NCBI GenBank assembly: GCA_029972225.1
Contig: CP124756.1
Location: 3,764,001 to 3,828,000 of the forward strand
Reading direction: 5' to 3'
Origin: Candidatus Thiothrix putei
Lineage (GTDB): Bacteria > Pseudomonadota > Gammaproteobacteria > Thiotrichales > Thiotrichaceae
DNA: 64,000 nucleotides
The first letter of the stretch is position 1. Each line of letters starts with the position of its first letter. This document shows positions 3,969 to 38,928 of this stretch, one piece after another. The position numbers were made by a program, and so were the translations under genes. The notes beneath the pieces are model-generated. The model worked only from the letters and a program-made list of their open reading frames with translations. It was not told where the DNA came from and made no database searches.

Positions 3969-4496
3969 TTAACGTGGAATTTTAATGAAATCTTCGTCGT
4001 AATTACCCTGTTCCGCCGTGGTATGGCAAGCCGTACAATTGGCAGGGCTGCTCACTCGCTTCCATACCGCAGGGGATAATTCATCGTAATGCTCATGCAC
4101 AAACCAGCGCGTTTCAGTAATGCGCAACGCTGATTTGCCTGCTGCCGCCGCGTATTTGCGCTCAGAACCGGCGTTTTGTTCCAAAAATGGCAAAATCTCG
4201 GCAATGGTGGCGGCATCCAAACTCGCATCCGTGCCAAAATGTTGCCCCAGATTACCCATGATTTCGCGCCAGCCACTGGCGGGTAATAACTTCGCTGGGT
4301 ACGCAAGGTGACACTCAGCGCATTCGGTTTTCCAAGAAGGTGGCATCGCTGCCGAAGTATCGTTGCCTCCGCCTTTTTCACGGTATTCATCGCCGTCATC
4401 ATCCGCTGTCACCGGCAAACTGGCGACACTGCCTAACAGCAATGCCCCTAATACCCAAGCGATCGCGCGGTTACGCTTCATTCTTAACATCGTCAT
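3969..4496 (-). CDS. Diheme cytochrome c, DHC type
   Basis: The 175-residue protein has a signal peptide (cleavage near VTA, residue 31) and two CXXCH haem sites, C59-H63 (CAECH) and C154-H158 (CTACH). The spacing and the WKTECAECHLAYPAKLLPASGW context match the DHC family of diheme cytochromes, the partners of SHP. It sits 4 bases after the SHP gene and 11 before the cytochrome b gene, so it is the middle gene of the operon. Its likely role is electron transfer in the periplasm between the membrane cytochrome b and SHP. Confidence 0.88.
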   Translation of the reverse strand: MTMLRMKRNRAIAWVLGALLLGSVASLPVTADDDGDEYREKGGGNDTSAAMPPSWKTECAECHLAYPAKLLPASGWREIMGNLGQHFGTDASLDAATIAEILPFLEQNAGSERKYAAAAGKSALRITETRWFVHEHYDELSPAVWKRVSSPANCTACHTTAEQGNYDEDFIKIPR

Positions 4497-36638: not shown

Positions 36639-37805
36639 ATGGTTATGCTTCCCATCACACGCAAGATAGTTTTATTAGCAGCGTTTGTATTGCCCATTGC
36701 CTCGCCCAATGCTGTCTTTGCTGCATTGCCAACAGAAATCAATGGGCAAGCACTTCCTTCTCTGGCAACGATGTTAGAGAAAATTACACCTGCTGTTGTC
36801 AATATTGCCACGGAAGGACGCCAGCCAATTAATGACTCGCTACTCAATGACCCCTTTTTCAAGCGTTTTTTTGGCGATGCCCCGCCCGGCGAACGGCGGA
36901 TTAATGGTACTGGCTCAGGGGTCATTATTCATGCTCAACGTGGGCACATTTTAACAAATTCTCATGTTATCGAGAATGCTGATGCTATCCACATTACCTT
37001 AAAAGACGGGCGCAAGTATTTGGCAGAAGTCGTTGGTATCGACCCCCGTGCTGATTTAGCGGTATTACAAATCCCGGCAGAACGCTTAACTGACATGCGT
37101 TTTGGTGATTCAGATCGTTTGCGCGTCGGGGACTTCGTAGTCGCGATAGGCAACCCTTACAGCATTGGTCAAACAGTAACATCCGGCATTATTAGTGCGC
37201 TACACCGTAATCCCGGCATCAGTGAATACGAGAATTTTATTCAAACTGACGCCCCCATCAACTTAGGTAACTCAGGTGGTCCTCTCGTTAATTTAAATGG
37301 CGAGTTGATCGGTATAAATACAGCAATACTGGGGGATCAAGGCGGTGGTAATTTAGGTATTGGCTTTGCTGTCCCCATCAACACTGCTGCGGGTGTTATC
37401 ACACAGATTATCCAGTACGGAAGTGTTGAACGTGGTCAACTAGGCGTCGAAGTACAAGATATTGATGCCGAAATGGCACGTAACTTTGGCATGAAACCCA
37501 ATGAGGGGGCGATTATCAACCAAATTCTCCCCGGGTCTCCTGCTGAAAAAGCCGGTATTGAGGCAGGTGACATCATCACACGGTTAAACAGTAGAAATGT
37601 TCAAAGCGCTGTTGATGTTAAAAACATCATAGGTGATTTACGGGTAGGCTCAGAAGTACATATGACATTGTTGCGGGGAGGGCGTCCTAGGAACATAACT
37701 GTCATCATTGCCCCGTCAACGCTGGAAAGATCAGCAATCCCAAGGCACACTGAGAATCTTCAGAGCGCCGCTAATAAGCCGTTCTGGGAGAAAGGTTTAC
37801 GCTAA
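36639..37805 (+). CDS. DegP/DegQ/DegS-type periplasmic serine protease
   Basis: The 388-residue protein has a signal peptide (cleavage after VFA, about 28) and a trypsin-like domain with the triad His109 (TNSHVI), Asp139 (ADLAVL) and Ser212 (GNSGGP). One PDZ domain follows (about 275-365: RGQLGVEVQDIDAEMARNFG...GSPAEKAGIEAGDII). Its length and single PDZ fit DegS/HhoB or the shorter Do proteases rather than DegP with two PDZ domains. It may degrade misfolded envelope proteins or trigger an envelope stress response. A hydrophobic N-terminal anchor instead of a cleaved signal is possible. Confidence 0.88.
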   Translation: MVMLPITRKIVLLAAFVLPIASPNAVFAALPTEINGQALPSLATMLEKITPAVVNIATEGRQPINDSLLNDPFFKRFFGDAPPGERRINGTGSGVIIHAQRGHILTNSHVIENADAIHITLKDGRKYLAEVVGIDPRADLAVLQIPAERLTDMRFGDSDRLRVGDFVVAIGNPYSIGQTVTSGIISALHRNPGISEYENFIQTDAPINLGNSGGPLVNLNGELIGINTAILGDQGGGNLGIGFAVPINTAAGVITQIIQYGSVERGQLGVEVQDIDAEMARNFGMKPNEGAIINQILPGSPAEKAGIEAGDIITRLNSRNVQSAVDVKNIIGDLRVGSEVHMTLLRGGRPRNITVIIAPSTLERSAIPRHTENLQSAANKPFWEKGLR

Positions 37806-37880
37806 ACTATATAACTTGGCAGCTCCCAAAAGAGAGCAGGCTTATCATATAAGACGCCAAGACCATTAAAGTATTTTATT

Positions 37881-37908
37881 TTTACAATACTTAGAAATGC
37901 GTTACTAT
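37881..37908 (+). promoter_or_regulatory. Promoter candidate for the structured RNA
   Basis: TTTACA (37881-37886) and TACTAT (37903-37908) are separated by 16 bases. A start near 37915 would give a transcript of about 185 bases ending at the terminator at 38100. Confidence 0.4.
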
Positions 37909-37914
37909 TCGAAA

Positions 37915-38100
37915 CAGATACTTCAAAAATATTTTTGATTTTATGAAAAGTTTCCGTGAAGTATCAAGAAATACACTAGGTGATGCTTAAGCCCGGCATC
38001 AGTATTTCTTGTTTACGGACACAGGTTTGGTGTCCCCAATCCAGACCTGTTCGTTAAACCCCGGCTTTTTAGACCCCCTGTTTGGCCGGGGTTCCTTTTT
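37915..38100 (+). ncRNA. Candidate structured non-coding RNA
   Basis: A long hairpin is formed by three consecutive pairings: 37953-37960 with 38012-38019 (8 bp, one G-U), 37965-37974 with 38002-38011 (CAAGAAATAC with GTATTTCTTG, 10 bp) and 37981-37986 with 37996-38001 (TGATGC with GCATCA). A second hairpin (GGACAC with GTGTCC, 38017-38035) competes with an alternative (ACAGGT with ACCTGT, 38021-38050). A good terminator ends the transcript. It contains no convincing reading frame. It matches no RNA family I can recall; its location next to engB is like that of Spot 42, but the sequence is not. Confidence 0.45.
38057..38100 (+). terminator. Terminator of the candidate ncRNA
   Basis: AACCCCGGC pairs with GCCGGGGTT (9 bp, arms 38057-38065 and 38085-38093) and is followed by CCTTTTT. 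The T tract is on the plus strand, so it terminates rightward transcription. Confidence 0.7.
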
Positions 38101-38154
38101 CCTACAGGAAGAAGGATACCCTTAACGAAATGAACTCTTCCTGAATAAGCACCG

Positions 38155-38754
38155 TTAAATATCCTTGCCCAACCATTTATCCAGAATACCCCAGCATTCG
38201 TCCAGCCCTTGCTTGTTAAGTGCAGAAAATGTTTGTACTGAAGCTATGCCGTAATCAGCCAAAGCCTTGCGTACTTGTAACAGCACATTCATCCCCGCAC
38301 CGCGAGTTAATTTATCTGACTTATTCAGCAACACATGCACCGGCAACATTCTGTTGCGTGCCCAACGCAACATCGCCTGATCGTAATCCGTCATTGGATG
38401 TCGAATATCCATCACCAACACCATTCCGCGTAAGGTATTCCGCTGCGTCAAATACGACTCGATGAATTTCTGCCATTCCAACTTAACCACTTCCGGTACT
38501 TTTGCATAACCGTAACCGGGCAAATCCACCAAAAAATGGGTATCCGGTAACTGAAAAAAGTTAATTAACTGGGTTCTACCTGGCGTTTTACTGGTTCTCG
38601 CCAATGACTTCTGCGAGCATACCCGATTGATTACACTTGATTTTCCCGCATTGGAACGCCCAGCAAAAGCAATCTCCAAACCACTTTCTGCTGGCAGGGT
38701 CTTACGAGTGGTCGCACTTTGTAGAAAAGTTGCTTGTTGGTAATAGTGATTCAT
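38155..38754 (-). CDS. engB: Ribosome biogenesis GTPase EngB (YihA/YsxC)
   Basis: I start at ATG 38754, giving [14 protein letters not shown], the length and wording expected of EngB; an in-frame ATG 20 codons upstream adds a tail not seen in the family. The 199-residue GTPase has G1 GRSNAGKSS (32-40), G3 DLPGYGYA, G4 LNKSDKL and a C-terminal SALNKQG. It assists assembly of the large ribosomal subunit and is usually essential. It is transcribed leftward; cytochrome c4 is divergent from it. Confidence 0.95.
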
Positions 38755-38928
38755 AATGTTAGCGTTCTCTAATATTTTTTGCGGAATACAAGCAGAATAT
38801 GTTGTACAATCCATTCGTTTTTTTCAGAATACCTTTCCCGTTACCGCGAAAGGGTGACACTGGAAAAGCTGTAGAGCGTGTGGATTATGGTATGCCTGCG
38901 TCAGGGTGGGTGCAGATTAAGATGCACT

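Follow-up and report, generated by a model that had tools for sequence, protein, structure and literature searches.

A candidate small RNA beside engB in Thiothrix, a probable divergent branch of the sRNAs of the polA/engB locus

In Candidatus Thiothrix putei, which belongs to the filamentous sulfur bacteria of the genus Thiothrix, a compact + strand unit sits between the stop codon of a gene for a DegP-type serine protease and the end of the opposing gene engB. The nature of this unit, found in the region 37881-38100 of the 64,000-nucleotide stretch analysed here (the window), raises two questions: is it a gene for a small RNA (sRNA) in its own right, and does it stand alone or belong with the sRNAs that neighbour engB or polA in other bacteria? 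A first-pass annotation had proposed a new small RNA at this place; the elements that it listed from the sequence alone were all found where it had put them, which confirms the observation, and the candidate is supported by a conserved structure and by its spread among relatives. In keeping with a new RNA, the Rfam search returned no family at its cut-off anywhere in the window. Among the papers listed in searches of open-licence literature, none describes this RNA for Thiothrix or brings sX13, ErsA and anti-hemB together.

We put at about 75% the probability that this is an independent sRNA gene and that its RNA, acting by pairing through C-rich loops, is a divergent Thiotrichaceae offshoot of a long-standing family of trans-acting sRNAs found at the polA/engB locus of Gammaproteobacteria. 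Known members of the proposed family are, among others, sX13 from Xanthomonas, anti-hemB from Burkholderia and its relatives, and ErsA from Pseudomonas.

The locus and its promoter region

The transcript would be ~185 nt long (37914-38100, + strand), its start being placed by the -10 box and its end by the T-tract. Its upstream neighbour is the DegP-type gene (36639-37805, + strand) and its opposing neighbour is engB (yihA/ysxC), a GTPase gene (38155-38814, - strand); each adjoins the RNA in 23 of the 25 family loci. The fetched flanks of L023 and L024 lack engB, and in L015 and L024 the RNA is present with no degP alongside. The DegP-type gene occupies the place held by polA in many other families; in this genome polA is found at C1:4138133, and 336 kb separate it from both engB and the sRNA. 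The closest relative sampled (G012) shares 97% identity over the 220 bases. The phage collection gave no match to the RNA, and a phage origin was rejected.

The promoter-like element of the first-pass annotation was borne out at 37881-37908 (+ strand), with a -35 box TTTACA (37881-37886), a 16-bp spacer and a -10 box TACTAT (37903-37908). Ahead of it stands an A/T-rich upstream element, ATTAAAGTATTTTATT (37865-37880, + strand), possibly an UP element or a regulator site. Among ten aligned genomes, mean identity is 0.37-0.41 in the first 30 bases after degP and 37-65% in the spacer ahead of the A/T-rich element; it is 0.96 at 37866-37880 and 0.88 at 37896-37910. Identity then drops to 0.60-0.64 in the leader and rises to 0.83-1.00 between 37941 and the end of the terminator. 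The almost invariant A/T-rich stretch before the -35 box, TTAAAGTATTTTATT (37866-37880), appears near-palindromic by eye. Across the family, the core of the A/T element is found in 10 of the 25 loci (L001-L010), none of which has a TTGACA-type promoter, while nine others (L011-L018 and L024) have TTGACA with a TATA-type -10 box upstream instead. The remaining six (L019-L023 and L025) have neither the A/T element nor a TTGACA-type promoter.

Pattern scans of 37500-38400 returned three promoter-like sites against 1.8 expected and two terminator-like sites against 1.0 expected. Both results are little above chance, and the case for a real RNA, as read from these sequences, is instead a comparative one.

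The 5' region of the RNA (37914-37952, + strand) is variable. Here GATACTTC can pair with GAAGTATC as an alternative to helix P1 described below, and the single-sequence minimum free energy (MFE) fold prefers this pairing over P1. By eye it is present in two of the ten aligned genomes (this one and L002), so that it seems to be lineage-limited, with P1 as the conserved partner.

Beyond the RNA terminator, the block that extends to the engB stop codon (38106-38150) shows 85-88% identity in ten genomes. Within it GAAATGAACTCTTCCTGAA is almost invariant, and in this genome there is an inverted repeat, CAGGAAGA/TCTTCCTG; the block could be the 3' end of engB or a binding site.

Fold, conserved loops and predicted action

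The three stacked pairings in a hairpin of roughly 65 bases, the second hairpin and the rho-independent terminator that had been proposed for this RNA are all present in the conserved fold. Helices P1 (37953-37960/38012-38019), P2 (37965-37972/38004-38011) and P3 (37981-37987/37995-38001) stack into a 5' domain of 67 nt (37953-38019, + strand), which ends in the loop UAAGCCC at 37988-37994. The second hairpin, P4 (38021-38030/38041-38050), carries the C-rich loop UGUCCCCAAU at 38031-38040. It is followed by the intrinsic terminator P5 (38057-38065/38085-38093), with a C-rich loop containing AGACCCCCUGUUU, and then by CCTTTTT, with the T-tract at 38096-38100.

Folded by itself, the sequence reaches -67 kcal/mol, where its shuffles average -44.75 (z -5.36), and none of 200 shuffles folds as low. 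The comparison of the 25 family genomes gives the same fold a covariation signal: 32 of the 42 base pairs are changed on both sides, where shuffled alignments average 15.5 and none of 500 reaches the observed count. In this 25-row alignment 93.4% of cells are paired, against a shuffle mean of 84.7%, and when the partners are shifted by 1 to 3 columns the paired cells fall to 33-50%. Two-sided changes are found in 21 of the 23 pairs of the 5' domain, in 7 of the 9 pairs of P5 and in 4 of the 10 pairs of P4, where 100% of cells are paired. When P2 and P3 are taken alone, their covariation score is reached by none of 500 shuffles, and two coarser covariation measures are reached by 8 and 14 of 500.

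In the loops it is the sequence that is kept. Invariant columns make up 6 of 7 in the P3 loop, 8 of 10 in the P4 loop and all five of the terminator CCCCC, and variability is 0.06 bits in the P3 loop and 0.14 bits in the P4 loop against 0.75-1.11 bits in the stems of P1-P3; the P4 stem is also conserved (0.24 bits). Stems that covary and loops that keep their identity are what one would expect of an antisense RNA that uses its loops as seeds, and we read the alignment as pointing that way.

How such an RNA might act is suggested by sX13. The sX13 authors describe three apical C-rich loops, repression that requires both these loops and G-rich motifs in the mRNA, and, in the accessible text of the paper, action through loops 2 and 3 with no need of Hfq (PMC3771888). 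The C-rich loops of sX13 have apparent counterparts in the Thiothrix RNA, and therefore pairing of the loops to G-rich ribosome-binding regions is proposed here. A sigma-70-type promoter would give rise to an RNA of ~185 nt, predicted to fold into the long three-helix 5' hairpin, the second hairpin and the terminator hairpin, each presenting one C-rich loop (UAAGCCC, UGUCCCCAAU and AGACCCCCUG). By analogy with sX13, these loops would reduce the translation of several mRNAs by pairing with G-rich stretches at or close to their ribosome-binding sites, an outcome established by experiment for sX13; for the Thiothrix RNA we infer transcription, loop pairing and repression alike. Such pairing may not be common to all relatives. 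For ErsA, a U-rich unpaired region is the predicted site of pairing with amrZ and anr, and Hfq is required for anr, according to the accessible text of its reports (PMC5819304, PMC8575079); the loops may therefore not be needed by every member.

Within the window, the pairing of the three loops with the start regions of 54 open reading frames is no better than that of shuffled loops, 18, 14 and 30 of 30 shuffles being as good or better, in what is a small sample with uncertain start codons. The genome has an hfq gene, whose start region contains no GGGG run; the hfq target of sX13 is thus not obviously kept.

Occurrence in relatives and the readings of the locus

Among 40 relatives searched by blastn, the RNA was found in all 25 sampled genomes of the genus and family. 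Three other blastn matches, all weak, were set aside as chance since they are without the core motifs: L026 and L027, from class genomes, and L028, which is an additional match in G023. A covariance model built from the 25 Thiotrichaceae RNAs (R1) recovers the RNA from 60 of the 63 order genomes and misses it in G391, G404 and G423 (completeness 85, 93 and 67). In 369 genomes of the class it gives 52 matches at E<=0.1, of which 49 fall outside the family, and under the stricter filters used the other 317 genomes are without a match. For 44 of these 49 matches the fetched flanks contain engB, polA or cytochrome c4; the five without any of them are L041, L043 and L122, which are short pieces, and L121 and L129. 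The phylum search with strict filters returned 3 of 398 genomes at E<=0.01, namely this genome, one of the class, and G603, whose match is weak (E 0.0099) and whose 3-kb locus (L230) shows no engB, polA or c4.

Two observations concern copy number. In L087 (1090-1810, genome G194) four related copies of the RNA stand in tandem between polA and engB, and paired or multiple nearby matches of the anti-hemB type occur in G129, G171, G173, G285 and G286.

The link to engB was also examined in loci chosen blind to the RNA, that is, 80 loci (481 kb) picked by similarity of the EngB protein alone. R1 gives 25 matches here at E<=1. Twenty-four lie in different loci, downstream of and opposing engB, 22 of them within 200 bp of it and two farther off (L214 at 0.8 kb, L158 at 1.2 kb); the last is a chance match (E 0.92). 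No match stands beside engB in 56 of the 80 loci. Nine of the 24 positive loci are Thiotrichaceae, in or near the training set, so the independent evidence is the 15 matches among 71 loci from outside that family. The reverse test employed a profile HMM built from 32 RNAs, none from Thiotrichaceae; a profile was preferred to a class-wide covariance model because in the class-wide MAFFT alignment A2 (31 sequences, L054 left out) the hairpins were out of register and RNAalifold kept the terminator only. The profile also yields 25 matches in the 80 loci, all opposing engB and 24 of them within 200 bp, and it recovers all nine Thiotrichaceae loci of the set (E 2e-9 to 1e-8). None of its training sequences recurs among the test loci, and on the reversed sequences it gave a single match (E 0.25).

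Ten of the EngB loci were scanned with Rfam. At the places found by R1, ErsA passes its threshold in L168 (80.8 bits), L211 (73.0), L210 (72.6) and L214 (65.6), and anti-hemB does so in L209 (64.9), L207 (60.6) and L216 (50.7), while three further loci give anti-hemB below the cut-off. L216, from a Thiotrichales MAG, also bears a c-di-GMP-I riboswitch (4145-4229, - strand) some 0.4-0.5 kb from the sRNA. A scan of 20 class loci found by R1 placed anti-hemB over its cut-off in five (L035, L036, L038, L043 and L051), with weaker anti-hemB, ar14, sX13, ErsA and CcsR1 scores in some others. The 49 class matches, the matches at the engB loci and the ErsA and anti-hemB scores over threshold together lead us to regard the Thiothrix RNA as an unlisted divergent branch of the sRNAs with C-rich loops at the polA/engB locus.

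Most of the class members compared share two hairpins, one with a CCUCCC-type loop and one with a UCCCCAA-type loop, and a CCCCGG terminator whose own loop is usually C-rich. The first of these hairpins is common but not universal (L057 and L058 lack it), and it is absent from the Thiotrichaceae alignment. This absence lends some weight to a different account, in which a new sRNA arrived at the engB locus independently and its likeness to sX13, ErsA and anti-hemB is convergent, loop pairing being its mode of action all the same. The low direct scores to the known families also fit this account, as does the finding that RF02837 at E 0.01, below its cut-off, occurs in 5 of 14 control genomes, distant ones included; moreover, features as simple as C-rich loops and a CCCCGG terminator stem can arise by convergence. 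Nevertheless, the matches cluster at one locus and in one orientation in loci selected without regard to the RNA. In addition, four loci of one family (L035, L036, L038 and L044) carry the P3 hairpin of Thiothrix, GCGCUUAAGCCCAGCGC, as well as the CCUCCC-loop hairpin and so look intermediate; three of them score as anti-hemB over threshold, as intermediates should. We therefore consider independent arrival unlikely.

Descent from the old polA/engB-locus family, as an independent gene, must also be weighed against the possibility that the RNA is the tail of the degP transcript, made up of its 3' untranslated region and its terminator, and is kept for stability or processed to an sRNA. That degP lies upstream on the same strand in nearly all family loci is what this possibility would predict. 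The first-pass annotation had named a degP mRNA 3' end as the explanation that would count against a new RNA, and it is disfavoured: a conserved promoter-like block separates a variable spacer from the RNA, with 96% identity at 37866-37880, L015 and L024 have no adjacent degP, and many other families have polA upstream instead. It is, in our estimate, very improbable.

Less credible still is an RNA that sequesters a protein, like 6S or CsrB, rather than acting as an antisense. The RNA is near 6S RNA (RF00013) in length and has a long imperfect hairpin, but the 6S gene of this genome is elsewhere (C1:3396457-3396635, 81 bits) with none in the window, so that 6S identity was rejected; the first-pass annotation had already remarked that the length recalls 6S RNA but that the 6S layout is not matched. 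Sites for CsrA bear a GGA motif, whereas the conserved loops here are C-rich. Finally, we give scarcely any credence to an RNA with two functions, one of them to encode a short peptide like that annotated as SpfP in E. coli Spot 42, since the 15-codon ATG reading frame at 37943-37990, which ends at the loop UAA and equals SpfP in its 15 codons, has its ATG in only 2 of the 25 family loci, the others being without it or broken in frame, and is probably a chance occurrence that leaves the small peptide unsupported.

Comparison with sX13, anti-hemB, ErsA and Spot 42

The models and the shared position connect the Thiothrix RNA, as a divergent relative, to named sRNAs of which it is not a direct member. 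Below cut-off, the Rfam models that match 37700-38260 best are rnk_pseudo, with 18.5 bits, and ErsA, with 17.7 bits; ErsA (RF01719), sX13 (RF02232) and anti-hemB (RF02837) have no match at threshold in the window, and the latter two have none in this genome (G000) at E 0.01. Direct membership in these families or in Spot 42 was rejected on scores below threshold. Direct scoring by R1 gives low values, and what ties the RNA to sX13, anti-hemB and ErsA is the intermediates together with the shared position.

The sX13 RNA of Xanthomonadaceae lies beside polA in L231-L233, which score 103-125 bits as sX13; according to its authors, the gene is always downstream of polA (PMC3771888). R1 without filters lands exactly on sX13 in these three loci, at low scores of 14.1-16.8 bits. 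The sX13 RNA of L232 shows apical loops rich in C, UCCCCAA among them, and its terminator loop contains GACCCCC and CUG. Where it has UUCCUCCCCAAAU and GACCCCCCCCUGGUC, the Thiothrix RNA has UGUCCCCAAU and AGACCCCCUG, and the hairpins with the latter loops are what we take to be the counterparts of the sX13 hairpins. The two RNAs differ in the long three-helix 5' domain of the Thiothrix RNA and in that engB is not found in the 3-kb sX13 loci; the function of sX13 is known in Xanthomonas only.

Like the Thiothrix RNA, anti-hemB (Burkholderia RNA 7) has hairpins with C-rich loops and a terminator, and it passes threshold at R1 places beside engB in the loci given above, whereas the Thiothrix RNA does not reach its gathering cut-off of 49.5 bits. 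The literature searched, as far as its accessible text goes, gave no described function for anti-hemB. ErsA (Pseudomon-1), found in the polA-engB intergenic region of P. aeruginosa in the accessible text of its reports (PMC5819304, PMC8575079), shares a C-rich loop and a C-rich terminator loop with the Thiothrix RNA. It is sigma-22 dependent. Against its gathering cut-off of 50 bits, the window scores 17.7 bits and the corresponding locus of G008 scores 25.9 bits; R1 gives 12.6 bits on ErsA of the one genome in the class search that is over the ErsA cut-off.

The order polA, spf and opposing yihA/engB in E. coli gives Spot 42 (spf, RF00021) the same place and orientation as the Thiothrix RNA. 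The first-pass annotation had remarked that the position beside engB recalls Spot 42 and the sequence does not, and indeed the region has no Spot 42 match in Rfam up to E 10 and the class profile does not match Spot 42 of E. coli. The best R1 match in a 5.5-kb E. coli stretch falls on spf (8.6 bits, E 0.058), which is not evidence, and the tie to Spot 42 is one of position only. The sX13 paper itself notes the parallel of the polA locus with Spot 42 and with the alphaproteobacterial ar7 family, the latter sharing C-rich loops with sX13 and, in the accessible text, no sequence similarity (PMC3771888).

Set against the proposed group, then, the Thiothrix RNA has the engB-opposing position, the conserved C-rich hairpin loops with a C-rich-loop terminator, and a relation to other members that is detectable in 49 class genomes and by the reverse profile; it lacks the CCUCCC-type-loop hairpin. 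On balance we lean towards an ancestral engB-side sRNA in early Gammaproteobacteria (including the former Betaproteobacteria) from which sX13, anti-hemB, ErsA and the Thiotrichaceae RNA descend, and perhaps Spot 42 as well, with C-rich seed loops kept while hairpins were gained and lost. If this is true, the polA/engB locus would be among the oldest continuously occupied sRNA loci known. The RNA family described here offers a way to trace how an sRNA keeps its seed loops while the remaining sequence drifts, and it provides Thiothrix with a predicted regulator of translation that would act globally. The sX13 authors had raised the question in 2013 whether such sRNAs are also encoded at the polA locus in other bacteria (PMC3771888). 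Their question is now directly testable, and the evidence points to yes: an RNA family with no Rfam entry, near-universal in Thiotrichaceae, joins the separately described sX13, anti-hemB and ErsA in one locus and one plan.
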